Position numbers and translations under genes: made by a program | Notes under the pieces: model-generated | Databases searched by the model: none | Told to the model about the DNA's origin: nothing | Seen by the model: the letters and a program-made list of their open reading frames with translations, nothing else | IMG/VR virus record: IMGVR_UViG_3300042695_000876 | Span: 1 to 54,248 of that record | DNA from: a virus | Length of the DNA stretch: 54,248 nucleotides | Strand: one strand, 5' to 3' | In this document: positions 12,509-20,078 of the stretch, piece by piece | Layout of the letters: every line of letters starts with the position of its first letter | How positions within the stretch are numbered: the stretch's first letter is position 1

Positions 12509-13522
12509 ATGGTAGAGTTCGTTGATATTCAGTTTGCCCAGATGCTTTCTGGTCGCCTTGAACATTTCAAAATAAAACATACAAATCCCTACAAGATCAA
12601 TTTTAGATGTCCACTTTGCGGTGACTCTCAAAAGTCTCGTAACAAAGCCCGCGGTTGGCTTCTAGAACGTGACAACAAGTTTTCATACTACTGCCATAAC
12701 TGTGGAGCGAGTCACAGTTTCAATAGCTTTTTGAAAACTGTAGATCCTCTCCTTTATAATGATTACATAACAGAAAAGTTTGTTGCTAACACTACTGTAG
12801 CGACTGCTGAAAAACCAGAACAATTCAAGACACAAACTCCTCAGTTTACTTCTAATCCTTTGAAAAAACTGAAGAAGGTAAGTCAGCTGCAACCAGATCA
12901 TCCGATCAAAAAATATGTTGCAAAGAGAAAAATCCCGACTCAACATCATTATCGTTTGTATTTTGCTCCAAAGTTTAAAGCTTGGATCAACGAGATCATA
13001 CCCAATAAATTTGATCCAGCTAAGATTGGTAAAGATGAACCTAGACTCGTAATTCCTTTCCTTGATGAGAAGGGAAATGTGTTTGGCGTATCAGCACGTG
13101 GTTTTGATCCAGACGGTATTAGATATATAAGTATTATGTTCGAGGAAAGACCTAAGATCTTTGGCCTCGACAAAGTTAATTTTAATGAACCGTATTATAT
13201 TGTAGAAGGAGCTATCGATAGTATGTTCCTCGACAACGCAGTTGCTATGGCTGGTGCTGAAGGCAATACTCATGGTGTTCAAAAACCTGAGAACTCGATA
13301 TTTGTATTTGATGCAGAACCACGCAATAAAGAAATTCATAAGAGAATGGAACGAGTGATTAAATCAGGTCATAAAATTTGTATATGGCCTTCTGATGTTC
13401 CTGGTAAAGACATCAATGAAATGTATCTAAACGGTCTCCACGATGTAGAAAAAATTATCGAAAATAATACCTATTATGGTTTACAAGCAGAATTGAAATT
13501 TGCCGCCTGGCGAAAAGTTTAA
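12509..13522 (+). CDS. 61: DNA primase, T4 gp61-like
   Basis: 337 residues. The N-terminal zinc-binding domain has Cys34-x2-Cys37 and Cys62-x2-Cys65 (FRCPLCGDS, YYCHNCGAS). The Toprim core follows: YYIVEGAIDSMFLDNAVAMAG (metal-binding Glu), NSIFVFDAEPRN (Asp-x-Glu), then PSDVPGKDINEM. T4 gp61 makes RNA primers for lagging-strand synthesis with helicase gp41. The RBS is weak (TGGAA). The start of thyX lies 11 nt beyond its stop. Confidence 0.88.
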   Translation: MVEFVDIQFAQMLSGRLEHFKIKHTNPYKINFRCPLCGDSQKSRNKARGWLLERDNKFSYYCHNCGASHSFNSFLKTVDPLLYNDYITEKFVANTTVATAEKPEQFKTQTPQFTSNPLKKLKKVSQLQPDHPIKKYVAKRKIPTQHHYRLYFAPKFKAWINEIIPNKFDPAKIGKDEPRLVIPFLDEKGNVFGVSARGFDPDGIRYISIMFEERPKIFGLDKVNFNEPYYIVEGAIDSMFLDNAVAMAGAEGNTHGVQKPENSIFVFDAEPRNKEIHKRMERVIKSGHKICIWPSDVPGKDINEMYLNGLHDVEKIIENNTYYGLQAELKFAAWRKV

Positions 13523-13532
13523 GGAGAAAAGT

Positions 13533-14222
13533 ATGAAAGTAAAGTTGTTTGGTTATACACAACCGGCTGAAGATATTCAGGAAGAACTTGGGATTAAAGA
13601 TGTTCAAGATCTGATTGCTTATTGTGCTAAGGTTTCAAATCCACAACTTCAACACGATCTATCAAAAGCAGATCGTTTGATTAATTATTTAGTTACACAC
13701 AAGCATTGGTCTCCTTTTGAAATGGCATCTGCAACTCTTGAGATTGAAACAACTCGAGATATTGCTCGTCAGATGCTTCGTCACCGTTCGTTTGCTTTCC
13801 AAGAATTTTCTCAGCGTTATGCTAATCCACAAGATATGGAAACATCTTTCGTTATTCGTGAAGCTCGATTGCAAGATAAAAAGAACCGTCAAAACTCTGT
13901 TGAACTGAATCTTGATAGACCTTTTGATAGAGATCTAGATCGTGAGTGGCGTTTACAACAAGAGAATGTTATCAAAGCAGCTAAAGAAGCATACGATTGG
14001 GCTATTGCACATGATATCGCAAAAGAGCAAGCTCGTTCTGTTCTACCTGAAGGTAACACTGTAAGTCGTCTTTACATGCAAGGTACTATTCGTTCTTGGA
14101 TCCACTTTATTGAATTGCGTTCTGGTAACGGTACACAAAAAGAACATATGGAAGTCGCTCGTGCAATCGCAGCGGCTATTTCTAAGATTTTTCCAATGAT
14201 AAAAGATTTTGTTCAGGAATAA
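13533..14222 (+). CDS. thyX: Flavin-dependent thymidylate synthase ThyX
   Basis: 229 residues from ATG 13533 (RBS AAGGAG). The ThyX signature RHR-x7-S appears as RHRSFAFQEFSQRY. Other family landmarks are the region VTHKHWSPFEMASATLEIET (substrate/FAD histidine), ARSVLPEGN and RSWIHFIELR. It makes dTMP from dUMP with methylenetetrahydrofolate and NADPH. It precedes the ribonucleotide reductase genes, forming a dNTP supply block. A hairpin follows its stop by about 100 nt. Confidence 0.95.
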   Translation: MKVKLFGYTQPAEDIQEELGIKDVQDLIAYCAKVSNPQLQHDLSKADRLINYLVTHKHWSPFEMASATLEIETTRDIARQMLRHRSFAFQEFSQRYANPQDMETSFVIREARLQDKKNRQNSVELNLDRPFDRDLDREWRLQQENVIKAAKEAYDWAIAHDIAKEQARSVLPEGNTVSRLYMQGTIRSWIHFIELRSGNGTQKEHMEVARAIAAAISKIFPMIKDFVQE

Positions 14223-14322
14223 ATTTTTTGTAACAATCATAAAAACAAATGCAGCAACAGATAAATATTACTACAATACATAATACATGTAGCTAATTAA
14301 TTCAAAAAACATACTATATATG

Positions 14323-14357
14323 CCTTCTAGTCTTAGAAGGTCTTGTATTCTTTATTT
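14323..14357 (+). terminator. Candidate intrinsic terminator after thyX
   Basis: Perfect 7-bp stem CCTTCTA (14323-14329) / TAGAAGG (14334-14340), 4-nt loop, followed by a T-rich stretch. The tail is interrupted, so efficiency may be low. The rest of the gap 14223-14382 holds GATAAATA (14260), a one-mismatch late box, and no gene. Confidence 0.5.
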
Positions 14358-14382
14358 TAACAGTTTAACCAAAGAGGGGCCC

Positions 14383-15663
14383 ATGATGCTTCAGTCTACT
14401 CCACCTGAGCTTATAAGGAAAGTACAATACGTACTTAAGAGAGATAATAGTACAGAAACTTACAATGAAAATAAGATTAGCACTGCTGTTTCAAAAGCTA
14501 TGAAATCTATTGGAATGAAAAGCAAACTACTCCCAGGTGAAGTTGCACTAGAAGTTACAGACATTCTCAACAGAGGACAGACCGATGTTCAAGTAAGTGT
14601 TGATGCTATTCATAGAATAGTTGAAAACGTAATGATGGACATGGGTCTTCACGATCTTGCACGTGAATACATCCTTTATCGTTACAATAATATGCCAAAT
14701 ATCTTCCGTAAAAGAACTAATCTTAAACCCTACGAATATCCTCAGCTTGTAGAATTTACCGATGCTATTCGCCACTCCTATTGGGTACATACTGAGTTTA
14801 ATTACTCTTCTGATATTCAGGATATGAAAGTCAAAATGACTCCCGAAGAAGTAGAAATTGTCAAAAAAGCAATGCTTGCTATTTCTCAAATTGAAGTTGC
14901 TGTTAAAACATTTTGGGCTAAAATTGGTGATAGATTTCCAAAGCCGGAAATTGCAGCTGTCGGTATTACTTTCGGTGAATCAGAAGTTCGTCACGCTGAC
15001 GCTTATTCAAACCTTATTGAGATCATGGGCCTTAATGACGAGTTTGAAAAAGTAGTTGAAGTACCAGCCATGAAAAAGCGTATTGCTTATCTTGAGCAAT
15101 CTATTGGTTCTCCTTCTGATGATAAAGATTATTTCCACAAAATTATTCTCTTCTCTATGTTCGTAGAAAACGTTTCGTTGTTCTCTCAATTCTTGATTAT
15201 GATGGCATTCAATAAGCATAAGAACCTGCTTAAAGGTATTTCAAACGCCGTTGAAGCTACTTCTAAAGAAGAAGATATTCATGCTCGTTTTGGTTTTGAA
15301 CTCGTGAATATTATCAGAGCAGAGAATCCAGAATGGTTTGATAAAGATAGTATTAATGAAGTAAACAGACTATGCCGTGAAGCGTTTAAGGCTGAGTCTG
15401 CTATTGTAGATTGGATTTATGGGGATGCTGACCTAGACTTTCTACCAAAAGATACAGTAAAAGAATTTCTTAAGCACCGTTTCAATCAGTCGCTTCAGGC
15501 AATTGATATGAAACCTCTTTACGATGTTGATAAAGAAGTTATTAAAACAACCGACTGGTTTGTTGAAGAAATTCTGAGTACTAAAAATGTTGACTTCTTT
15601 GTTAAGCGCAGCACTGCGTATTCTAAGAAGACAAAAGCATTCACCGAAGACGATCTATTTTAA
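14383..15663 (+). CDS. nrdB: Class I ribonucleotide reductase small subunit NrdB with N-terminal ATP-cone
   Basis: 426 residues from ATG 14383 (RBS GAGGGG; the earlier in-frame ATG lies in a hairpin). Residues about 12-100 are an ATP-cone (VQYVLKRDNSTETYNENKIS ... GLHDLAREYILYRY), the allosteric domain normally found on NrdA. The ferritin-like body keeps metal ligands: Glu201-x2-His204 (EVRH), Glu263 and Glu297-x2-His300 (EDIH); Tyr208 is at the radical-tyrosine position (His+4). The C-terminal tail TEDDLF would dock into NrdA. ATP-cones on NrdB occur in some bacterial subclasses such as Leeuwenhoekiella. Cofactor type cannot be read from sequence. Confidence 0.92.
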   Translation: MMLQSTPPELIRKVQYVLKRDNSTETYNENKISTAVSKAMKSIGMKSKLLPGEVALEVTDILNRGQTDVQVSVDAIHRIVENVMMDMGLHDLAREYILYRYNNMPNIFRKRTNLKPYEYPQLVEFTDAIRHSYWVHTEFNYSSDIQDMKVKMTPEEVEIVKKAMLAISQIEVAVKTFWAKIGDRFPKPEIAAVGITFGESEVRHADAYSNLIEIMGLNDEFEKVVEVPAMKKRIAYLEQSIGSPSDDKDYFHKIILFSMFVENVSLFSQFLIMMAFNKHKNLLKGISNAVEATSKEEDIHARFGFELVNIIRAENPEWFDKDSINEVNRLCREAFKAESAIVDWIYGDADLDFLPKDTVKEFLKHRFNQSLQAIDMKPLYDVDKEVIKTTDWFVEEILSTKNVDFFVKRSTAYSKKTKAFTEDDLF

Positions 15664-15674
15664 AAGAGGGACAT

Positions 15675-17363
15675 ATGGAAAAATTTTATTGGCTAAACTC
15701 TGACTCGAGAACTTTTTTGTCTCGTGGATATTTAAGTGGAGGTGAGACACCGGAAAGTCGTATTCGTGATATAGCAGATCAGGCTGAAAAATATCTTAAA
15801 GAAATGGCAACAACAGAAGAAGCAAAGAAGAGCTTCGACGGTTATGCTGATAAGTTTTTTGATTATATGTCTCGTGGTTTCTATTCATTAGCATCTCCTG
15901 TTTGGGCTAACTATGGCAAGAAGCGTGGGCTTCCTGTTTCTTGCTTTGGTTCTTATATTGATGATAGTATGCAAGCTATTCTTTTTAGTCATGCTGAAAA
16001 CGGTATGCTTATGAAGAATGGTGGTGGAACTTCTGGTTACTTCGGCGCAGTTCGCCACCGCGGCGCACCTATTACAGATCAAGGTGAGTCTTCTGGTTCT
16101 GTACATTTTATGCAGATGTATGATACACTTGCGTCTGTTGTTTCACAAGGTTCAGTTCGTCGTGGTTTCTTTGCTGCATATCAAGACATTGAACACCCCG
16201 ATGCAGATGAATTCTTAGATATTGGCACAGAAGGTAATCCTATTCAAGGTCTTACAACTGGTATTTCCGTTTCAAATAAGTTCATTGACGAGATGAGAAA
16301 TGGTGATGCAGAAAAGCGTCGTCTATGGGCAAAAGTTCTTCAGCGTAGATCTGAAGTTGGTTTCCCTTATATTCTTTACTCAGATAACGTAAACGATGGT
16401 CGTCCTCAGGTTTACAAAGATAAGAATCGTCGTGTGCATGCTTCTAATATGTGTGCAGAAATTGCTCTTCCTTCTTCACACGAAGAAACATTTACTTGTG
16501 TTCTTTCTTCTATTAATGTGTTACTATGGGATGAGCTTAAAGAAACAGATGCTATCGAGGTTATGACTTACTTCCTTGATACTGTTTGTGAAGAATTCAT
16601 TCGTAAAACTGAAGGTCAAATCTATCTTAAGCGTGCTCGTGATTTTGCTATGAACCATCGCGCTCTTGGTGCTGGTATTCTTGGTTGGCATTCTTATCTT
16701 CAGTCTAATATGATCGCCTTCGAGTCTAAAGAAGCAGCTCAAAAGAATCTTGATATCGCCAAGACTCTTCGTGAAAGATCACATGCTGCTTCTCGTGATA
16801 TGGCTGTAAAGTTTGGTGAACCAGAAATCCTTAAGGGTTATGGTATGCGTAACACCACTACTATGGCTATTGCTCCAACTAAATCCTCGAGCTTTATTCT
16901 TGGACAAGTAAGTCAATCTATTGAGCCAGAGTTCTCAAACTGCTATGTTAAAGATCTCGCGAAGATGAAGGTTACTATTAAGAACCCGTATCTTGAAAAA
17001 CTTCTTCAGGAAAAAGGTGAAGACAAAGACGAAGTCTGGGAATCAATCCGTAATGCTGATGGTTCTGTTCAACATCTTAATATCCTAACAGAAGAAGAAA
17101 AAGCAGTGTTTAAAACTTTCTCTGAAATTAATCCATACACAATCATTGATCATGCAGCAGTTCGTCAGCAATACATTGACCAATCGCAAAGTCTTAATCT
17201 CATGCTTGATCCAGACATGTCAGTGAAAGAAATCAATCAACTATATCTGTATGCGTGGGAAATGGGTGTTAAGAGTCTTTATTATAGCTACTCAATGTCT
17301 GCAGCTCAATCACTCACTCGTAAGAGAGTAATGTCGTCAGAGTGCGCGGCTTGTGAAGCTTAA
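15675..17363 (+). CDS. nrdA: Class I ribonucleotide reductase large subunit NrdA, compact, without ATP-cone
   Basis: 562 residues, about 200 shorter than E. coli NrdA. Active-site residues are present: Cys90 (VSCFG) and Cys275 (TCVLSSIN) as the redox pair, Asn258-x-Cys260-x-Glu262 (SNMCAEI) as catalytic trio, and a Tyr-Tyr near the end (KSLYYSYS) for radical transfer. The C-terminus SSECAACEA provides the CxxC that is re-reduced by glutaredoxin or thioredoxin. No N-terminal ATP-cone; that domain is on NrdB. It is one base from hemA, so the two are probably co-translated. Confidence 0.93.
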
Positions 17364-17364
17364 A

Positions 17365-18558
17365 ATGAATTATTTGAATTACTTCGAGAAGATCGTTGAT
17401 AACTATAAAGAAGACGGCAGATATAGAGTATTCAATGATATACTAAGAGAGCGAGGATCATTTCCTCGCTCTATATGGTACGGTAAATATGCTCCAAAAA
17501 ATATTGTAAATTGGTGCTCAAATGATTATCTAGGTATGGGTCAGAATCGATATGTTATTGATGCTATGCACACAGCTTTAGATCAAACCGGTTCTGGTTC
17601 TGGAGGTACTCGTAACATAGGTGGTACTTCTCACTACCATGTTACACTCGAAAAAGAATTAGCTTTACTTCATAAGAAAGAGTCTGCTCTTTTGTTCACG
17701 AGCGCATACGTGGCAAATGAGTGGGCTCTTATTGCTTTGAGTAGAATTATTCCAGATATTTGTTTCATATCAGATAGTAAGAACCATGCATCTATGATTA
17801 TTGGAATAAATCATAGTCGTGCAAGTAAGATTGTATTCGAGCATAACAATATGAAAGATCTTGAAGATGCATTGATCGCAGCAACAGCAGCTGGAAAGAT
17901 TCCTTGCATTGTTTTCGAGTCTGTATATAGTATGGATGGAGATGTTTCTCCTGTTAAAGACATCTGTGATTTAGCAGATAAATATAACGCGATTACCTAT
18001 ATTGACGAAGTTCATGCGGTTGGTCTTTATGGTGACACTGGTGCAGGTTACTGCGAAAAGCTCGGTGTTTCTGATAGAATTGATATTATTAATGGAACGT
18101 TAGGAAAAGCATATGGTGTACAAGGTGGTTATGTTGTTGGGCTTTCTGTGGTTCTCGATGCCATTCGTTCTGTTGCCAGTGGCTTTATTTTTACGACATC
18201 AACAGCCCCAGCAATATGTGCAGGAGCCCTTGCCTCAATCAAATATCTCAGAGACCACTCTTCTTTACGTGAACAACACCAAGAAAGAGCCAGAAAACTG
18301 AAGAGAATGTTGACTGAAGCAGACATACCAGTACATCCAAATTCCTGCACTCACATCATTCCAGTCATGGTAAACGATGCTTTTAAATGTAAAGCAGCAA
18401 GCGATAGACTACTTAATGAGTTTGGAATTTATATTCAACCAATTAATTCTCCAACAGTTGATGTTGGCACTGAAAGATTAAGAATTGCGCCTACACCATA
18501 TCATGACGATATTATGATGACTGAACTGGTTGAGGCCTTAAGAAAGGTATTGAAATGA
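17365..18558 (+). CDS. hemA: 5-aminolevulinate synthase (ALAS)
   Basis: 397 residues, close to full-length bacterial ALAS. Motifs in order: [29 protein letters not shown] (glycine-rich, PLP phosphate), [35 protein letters not shown] (Asp214 and His217) and [13 protein letters not shown] with PLP-lysine Lys248, then GIYVQP-like [11 protein letters not shown] and [10 protein letters not shown]. These distinguish ALAS from related KBL/BioF enzymes. It condenses glycine and succinyl-CoA to 5-aminolevulinate, the committed step of heme and bacteriochlorophyll synthesis in alphaproteobacteria. ATG 17365 is chosen; the upstream GTG overlaps nrdA. No heme-regulatory CP motif at the N-terminus. Very unusual for a phage. 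Confidence 0.95.
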
Positions 18559-18596
18559 ATCAATTAGAAAATGCTTTCTTTAGAAAGGAAACTAAA

Positions 18597-19016
18597 ATGA
18601 GTAAGATTAAAAAAGCTTTTTGGTTTACTCTTGGAATTATATTATTAGGAGTAGCATATCTAGGTGTTCTTATTCCTGGTCTTCCGTGGAGTACACCAGT
18701 TCTAGGAGCTGCGTTTTGTTTTGCTAAGTCAAGTGAAAAGTTTCATAATTGGATTATGAATCATAAAACTTTTGGGCCGTTCATTAAAGAATGGTCTACA
18801 TATAGAGTGTATCCTAATAAAGCAAAATATCTTATGGTAATAGTGATGACTATTTCTCTTACTATTATGCTATTGACAACTGGCAATTTTATGGCTACAA
18901 TGTATCTTCTTATATTGTTCTCCGTAATTGTAGCTTGGGCAAGCAGATATCCAGGATCAAAAGAAGAAGCCGAGCGCAGAATTGCTGCTGGAGAGAAGAT
19001 CGGCTGGCTTAAATAA
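18597..19016 (+). CDS. DUF454 (YbaN-like) inner-membrane protein
   Basis: 139 residues from ATG 18597, preferred because AAGGAAA lies 6 nt upstream; ATG 18555, overlapping the hemA stop, is an alternative. TM segments lie about 5-45 (FWFTLGIILLGVAYLGVLIP, then a LPWSTP turn) and two near 80-120. The LGVLIPGLPWSTPVLGAAFC and WIMNHKTFGPFIKEW patterns are characteristic of DUF454/YbaN. Function of the family is unknown. Position after hemA hints at a link with tetrapyrrole handling, but that is only context. Confidence 0.8.
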   Translation: MSKIKKAFWFTLGIILLGVAYLGVLIPGLPWSTPVLGAAFCFAKSSEKFHNWIMNHKTFGPFIKEWSTYRVYPNKAKYLMVIVMTISLTIMLLTTGNFMATMYLLILFSVIVAWASRYPGSKEEAERRIAAGEKIGWLK

Positions 19017-19052: not shown

Positions 19053-20078
19053 ATGTCAAAGAAAATTCTTATTACCGGTGGTGCAGGTTTTATTGCTCAC
19101 CATCTTATTGGTCAGATCCTTAAGAGAACTGACTGGGAAATTGTCACCGTAGATCGTTTAGATTATAGCGGTAATCTCAATCGTTTGGCAGATATTCTTC
19201 AAGATTACTCTCCTTCTGAAAAGAAAAGAGTTCGTACAATCTATCATGATTTAAAGGCTGAATTTAATCCAATGCTTCTTGCAGATATTGGAAAAGTAGA
19301 TATCATTGCACACCTAGCCGCTGGTTCACACGTGGATCGCTCTATTGAACGTCCTATGGAATTTGTTATGGACAATGTGGTCGGCACCTGTAACGTCCTT
19401 GAGATGGCTCGTAAGCAGGATAACTTAGAACGTTTCCTTTACTTTTCTACAGACGAAGTTTTTGGCCCTGCTCCAGATGGTGTTAAGTACGATGAGTATG
19501 ATCGTTACAACTCAACGAATCCGTACTCAGCATCTAAAGCTGGTGGCGAAGAACTTGCAGTAGCATTCCAGAACACATATCATATGCCGATCTATATTAC
19601 ACATACTATGAATGTGTTTGGACAGAGACAACACCCCGAGAAGTTTATTCCTATGACTATTCGTAATGTTCGTGATGGAAAAACTGTAACAATCCATTCT
19701 GATGCTACTAAAACTATTCCAGGTTCAAGACATTACATCCACGCAGAAGATGTTGCTGATGCATCGTTGTTCTTGCTTGAAAATAATAGAACGCTTGATA
19801 TGTCTAACAACACTGGAATTAAATGCCCTAAGTTTAATATCTGCGGAGCAACAGAACTGAATAACTTAGAACTAGCACAAATGATTGCCAACGCTCAAGG
19901 AAAGGAACTCAAATATGAATTCATGGATTTCCATAGTAGCCGTCCTGGCCACGATCTCCGTTATGCTCTATCTGGTGAACGAATGGCAAATATGGGATGG
20001 ACTCCAAAGCCTGTCGAAGATAGAATTAACGAAGTAGTTCATTGGACTTTAGAAAATAGAAGGTGGTTAGACGTATGA
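19053..20078 (+). CDS. NAD-dependent sugar-nucleotide dehydratase/epimerase (extended SDR, dTDP-glucose 4,6-dehydratase-like)
   Basis: 341 residues. Rossmann GGAGFIAHH near residue 8, VDRLDYSGNL, HLAAGSHVDRSIERP, FLYFSTDEVFG and catalytic Y-x3-K in NPYSASKAGGEE. The S-T-D-E-V-F-G and S-H-V-D-R-S motifs match RmlB-type 4,6-dehydratases, with Thr-Asp-Glu as catalytic residues. The substrate may be dTDP-, CDP- or UDP-sugar. RBS AAGGAG. It heads a sugar operon with a methyltransferase and a GT17-sulfotransferase. Confidence 0.88.
   Translation: MSKKILITGGAGFIAHHLIGQILKRTDWEIVTVDRLDYSGNLNRLADILQDYSPSEKKRVRTIYHDLKAEFNPMLLADIGKVDIIAHLAAGSHVDRSIERPMEFVMDNVVGTCNVLEMARKQDNLERFLYFSTDEVFGPAPDGVKYDEYDRYNSTNPYSASKAGGEELAVAFQNTYHMPIYITHTMNVFGQRQHPEKFIPMTIRNVRDGKTVTIHSDATKTIPGSRHYIHAEDVADASLFLLENNRTLDMSNNTGIKCPKFNICGATELNNLELAQMIANAQGKELKYEFMDFHSSRPGHDLRYALSGERMANMGWTPKPVEDRINEVVHWTLENRRWLDV

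Follow-up and report, generated by a model that had tools for sequence, protein, structure and literature searches.

5-Aminolevulinate synthase (ALAS; EC 2.3.1.37) condenses glycine and succinyl-CoA to 5-aminolevulinate (ALA) in the Shemin pathway; this committed, host-regulated step of tetrapyrrole synthesis starts heme synthesis. Phage ALAS is already known as a kind and was first described in 2024 (PMC11480375). The main text of that paper by Wegner et al. describes viral ALAS (vAlaS) in aquatic phages, its viral clade, and a structure model, and reports that the homologue CB_2 vAlaS complements the ALA auxotroph Escherichia coli ST18 and forms ALA; the genes described there stand alone or occur with hemO and pcyA/X (PMC11480375). 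A 2026 estuary study regards viral alaS as an established auxiliary gene and followed its abundance and transcription (PMC13390420). The hemO-pcyX cassettes of marine phages, which were found in some relatives of the DNA studied here, are likewise phage tetrapyrrole genes, but they act downstream of heme, whereas alaS encodes the first step.

The window analyzed here (the whole stretch of 54,248 nucleotides, a 54-kb virus fragment) carries an alaS that resembles the vAlaS genes in the main text of Wegner et al. in being phage-borne, in its alphaproteobacterial affinity, in its separate viral clade, in the catalytic residues kept, and in the absence of His342 and Cys400 of R. capsulatus ALAS (PMC11480375). 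In contrast to the arrangements described there, the gene directly follows nrdB (with an ATP cone) and nrdA and precedes a DUF454 gene, and the fragment is without the hemO/FDBR of the published cassettes, CB_2 being compared by its description only. The terms "ribonucleotide," "nrd," and "DUF454" are absent from the main text of that paper, whose figures or supplements may show the arrangement (PMC11480375). New here are the regular place of alaS after DNA-precursor genes in one phage branch and the steady DUF454 companion of viral alaS. Taken as a whole, the locus very probably encodes a functional vAlaS that serves a T4-like phage as an auxiliary metabolic gene, was captured once and raises the ALA supply, with DUF454 probably being part of the same heme module.

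Identity of the putative vAlaS

The alaS frame (17365 to 18558, plus strand) is open from an ATG start to a TGA stop and encodes 397 amino acids; the assignment is based on TIGR01821, the catalytic residues, and the viral clade. The sequence-only reading had described a complete ALAS frame with its motifs, and indeed, GTLGKAYG was found, with its lysine being residue 248 and aligned to Lys248 of R. capsulatus ALAS. The NCBI ALAS model TIGR01821 matched the protein with 561.2 bits at a cut-off of 338.55, which excludes a chance match. Since the models for glycine C-acetyltransferase (KBL) and BioF, members of the same fold family, also matched (311 and 302 bits), the protein could instead be an alpha-oxoamine synthase of the KBL/BioF type with another substrate, but both scores were below the models' own cut-offs of 460 and 426. 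Moreover, the window protein has the Thr and Asn of R. capsulatus positions 83 and 85, which we take to be the residues that separate ALAS from KBL and BioF; in the alignment, the latter two carry V/S and F/H there. We consider a KBL/BioF-type enzyme very improbable, and ALAS is the best match, as had been proposed. A sequence search of the PDB listed bacterial ALAS first, with HemA of R. palustris (7x98) on top, and a fold search with the AlphaFold model (mean pLDDT of 81; N-terminal residues 23 to 53 poorly modeled) gave 7x98 and 2bwn as the top matches with a TM score of 0.82, that is, an ALAS fold.

In an alignment to R. capsulatus ALAS, Arg21, Thr83, Asn85, His142, Asp214, His217, Lys248, Thr365, and Arg374 were all kept (Arg21, Thr82, Asn84, His141, Asp214, His217, Lys248, Thr364, and Arg373 in window numbering). 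Apart from Thr83 and Asn85, these are presumably the pyridoxal phosphate (PLP) and substrate residues, and all nine were invariant in the window protein, 45 other viral ALAS representatives, and 38 bacterial ones. The window protein is like the ALAS of R. capsulatus and R. palustris (2bwn and 7x98) in sequence, fold, and active site, but it has a shorter C terminus and a Lys at the position of R. capsulatus His342, a residue that we take to be heme-binding. A His was present at this position in only 3 of the 38 bacterial ALAS, a sample picked by similarity to viral ALAS, and its absence is therefore no mark of phage enzymes. In the main text of Wegner et al. (2024), the missing heme-binding His of vAlaS is read as an escape from heme feedback (PMC11480375). 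The notion that lost heme feedback is a trait specific to phages was rejected here, since most of the sampled bacterial ALAS also lacked His342.

The window alaS is a real and probably active member of this known kind of phage gene; its activity is predicted by analogy with CB_2, for which activity was demonstrated. During infection, vAlaS would form ALA from glycine and succinyl-CoA independently of host transcriptional control, and heme and other tetrapyrroles would keep flowing during host gene shutdown. A boosted tetrapyrrole supply, as suggested in the sequence-only reading, is the natural reading by analogy and matches the work on the homologue in the main text of Wegner et al. (PMC11480375). 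If the phage benefits in this way, carriage of the committed tetrapyrrole step implies that infection is held back by a shortage of heme or related cofactors.

Ancestry, prevalence, and selection

A quick maximum-likelihood tree of 89 sequences was calculated, for which KBL and BioF served as the outgroup and SH-aLRT was the sole measure of support. The viral ALAS clade branched among alphaproteobacterial ALAS in the rooted tree, which agrees with the alphaproteobacterial origin assumed earlier. The window enzyme was found inside an all-viral clade of 46 representatives (SH-aLRT of 99) and not, as had been envisaged, nested in a single present-day bacterial clade; its identity to bacterial ALAS was up to 58 to 59%, and to viral ALAS it was 70 to 82%. 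An alphaproteobacterial alaS was very probably captured once and then diversified within phages. The GC content at third codon positions (GC3) of alaS was 0.27, matching the neighboring phage genes thyX, nrdB, nrdA, and DUF454 (0.24 to 0.29), which argues against a recent arrival. The relatives of the window alaS are under strong purifying selection: for alaS of L004 and L008, dN was 0.084 and dS was 0.70, giving a ratio of about 0.12. Comparisons with the window alaS itself are near or at synonymous saturation, as for L002 (dN of 0.13; dS of about 1.9, close to saturation).

With the window protein alone as the query, 148 IMG/VR stretches encoding relatives were found, and with a broader query, there were at least 589, a few of which are bacterial. 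Phage ALAS is thus not rare, in contrast to the sequence-only reading, and the number of relatives together with the single viral clade speaks for a long-standing, widespread strategy of aquatic phages rather than a curiosity. No ALAS was found in 50,697 GenBank phage records, and a near-DNA search with the window region gave no match. Nineteen matches in the GenBank phage records were rejected as ALAS because they were at most 36% identical and KBL/BioF-like; the records that hold them are mostly bacterial-looking DNA filed as phage.

Phage setting and host

The window alaS is surrounded by genes for a primase, an endolysin, a spanin, PhoH, and an RNA-ligase/tail-fiber attachment protein, which identifies the DNA as a phage genome. 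The T4-like DNA primase (12509 to 13522, plus strand; phrog_47) is the anchor of a conserved order, primase-thyX-RNR-alaS-DUF454, where RNR is ribonucleotide reductase. Downstream of DUF454 is a gene for a nucleotide-sugar epimerase/dehydratase (19053 to 20078, plus strand; PF16363/PF01370, phrog_540, synteny), which comes after the module in close relatives and is context outside the heme function. In three IMG/VR stretches (L174, L188, and L226), the ALAS grouped with bacteria, namely, Caulobacteraceae or Caenispirillum; these are probably bacterial DNA in a viral collection and not phage genes. Since such contamination exists, the window alaS could also belong to a bacterial fragment or a chimeric assembly, but the primase, endolysin, spanin, and PhoH genes flank it on one contig, the gene order is repeated in many diverged contigs, and the viral ALAS clade is clean. 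Furthermore, the IMG/VR stretch L001 has 100% identical genes in identical order, which, together with the diverged contigs of equal order, makes an assembly error unlikely. The chance that alaS is not a phage gene is practically negligible, and its phage-borne nature, claimed earlier, is borne out by the genes that share its contig.

The carrier of alaS is most likely a T4-like phage of an alphaproteobacterium. By the primase, the nearest isolates were the Sinorhizobium phages phiN3 and phiM12, with 45% identity; the host assignment is a prediction from this match and the ALAS ancestry.

The RNR neighborhood of alaS

Upstream of alaS on the plus strand lie thyX (13500 to 14222; PF02511, phrog_85), encoding a flavin-dependent thymidylate synthase; nrdB (14320 to 15663; PF00268, PF03477), encoding a class I RNR small subunit of 447 amino acids with an N-terminal ATP cone; and nrdA (15675 to 17363; PF02867 with 308.7 bits, phrog_84), encoding the large subunit of 562 amino acids without an ATP cone. 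The end of nrdA at 17363 and the alaS ATG at 17365 are 1 base apart on the same strand, just as the sequence-only reading stated. Its description of alaS as fused into the RNR operon is correct as gene order but not as a fusion, because alaS is a separate gene with its own reading frame. In this phage branch, alaS would form the end of a thyX-nrdB-nrdA operon.

Co-transcription of alaS with the RNR genes might reflect a functional coupling of tetrapyrrole supply and dNTP synthesis in the virocell, as had been suggested. In fact, 75 of 80 close relatives have an RNR gene on the same strand at most 1.5 kb upstream of alaS, and the order primase-thyX-RNR-alaS-DUF454 is widely conserved among relatives. 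However, in a wider set, no RNR was found upstream of alaS in 54 of 78 loci, and on the vAlaS tree, RNR adjacency required only 2 changes (one subclade plus one exception), with other viral branches being without a nearby RNR. The type of RNR changed at least 6 times on the same tree across all states: upstream of alaS, we found nrdB(ATP cone)-nrdA as in the window, a long nrdA(ATP cone)-nrdB, in some cases together with glutaredoxin, and a short nrdA-nrdB from a third lineage. Every RNR seen belonged to class I, which does not need heme or B12. For relatives without an NrdA match, a link to ALA through a class II (B12-dependent) RNR was rejected, since the upstream genes there encode class I NrdA and NrdB. 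A functional coupling of RNR and alaS is possible but not indicated, and we regard it as an unlikely reason for the arrangement; the most parsimonious view is that one phage branch has a conserved site and that RNR modules were exchanged into it.

In the RNR of the window (14320 to 17363), nrdB is ahead of nrdA and the ATP cone is on NrdB, with none on NrdA; other class I RNR architectures were seen at the equivalent site in L005, L024, and L028. The relative L294/L373 has the order thyX-nrdA-nrdB-DUF454-epimerase, with no alaS between nrdB and DUF454, and presents a natural empty site. RNR and DUF454 without alaS were also seen in L281/L282, L395, and L412.

The DUF454/YbaN companion, hemO, and bilin reductase

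The next gene (18597 to 19016, plus strand; PF04304, gene association) encodes a small membrane protein of the DUF454/YbaN family with 139 amino acids. Its ATG at 18597 is preceded by AGGAAA; another ATG farther upstream, at 18555, shares bases with the alaS stop, and the frame from 18555 to 19016 matched PF04304 with 96 bits. An alignment of 29 phage members was conserved. Among 84 distinct viral alaS loci, each with at least 3 kb downstream, DUF454 was present within the flank in 72, in 30 of these on the alaS strand and no more than 200 bases downstream, whereas it was found near none of 80 bacterial ALAS loci. DUF454 is a steadier partner of viral alaS than RNR is. Of the annotated phage records, 7 of 50,697 matched DUF454, and these are apparently bacterial DNA. 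All 15 primase-anchored relatives have DUF454, partly through shared ancestry, as they are close kin; 3 of them kept DUF454 but lack alaS, and alaS is therefore dispensable.

No hemO or bilin reductase gene was found in the 54-kb window record, a fragment; in longer relatives, these genes are 26 to 35 kb from alaS, mostly upstream and thus typically beyond the window start, so that their absence here says little. L203, L209, and L211 have a three-gene cassette, hemO-FDBR-alaS, of the kind described by Wegner et al. (PMC11480375). In L319 and L320, DUF454 is directly beside hemO and a bilin reductase gene, and no alaS was seen. Across L301, L304, L319, L320, and the window, DUF454 recurrently adjoins phage alaS or hemO-bilin reductase.

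Outside phages, DUF454 follows a biliverdin-producing heme oxygenase gene behind tonB-exbBD on a Pseudoalteromonas plasmid, and one bacterial DUF454 gene adjoins a TonB receptor gene. No heme genes were found near DUF454 in three alphaproteobacterial plasmids or on one marine Paracoccaceae plasmid, and a fold search with DUF454 gave no usable match. The domains that co-occur with type 11 secretion genes of cluster 1 include heme oxygenase and DUF454 (PMC12282271), and in Avibacterium, DUF454 was up under iron starvation (PMC7970244). The membrane protein probably serves the same heme module as alaS. Only tentatively, we propose that DUF454/YbaN handles heme or porphyrins as a protein of the inner membrane and that alaS-DUF454, with hemO and bilin reductase elsewhere or absent, is a phage heme module whose parts travel together. 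If true, this would be the first functional handle on DUF454, a family that is widespread but of unknown function; the link makes it accessible to tests in heme biology.

Other features of the window

The core of the T4 late promoter, TATAAATA, had 8 exact sites in the window (at 164, 490, 3068, 7442, 11871, 42764, 44710, and 48572), all on the plus strand, at an expectation of 3.2 on both strands. No exact TATAAATA site was present from 11.9 to 42.8 kb. Between 28000 and 34000, the GC content rose to about 0.45, compared with 0.37 to 0.40 around it; this GC-rich stretch covers a lipoprotein-like gene and the RNA-ligase/tail-fiber attachment gene.
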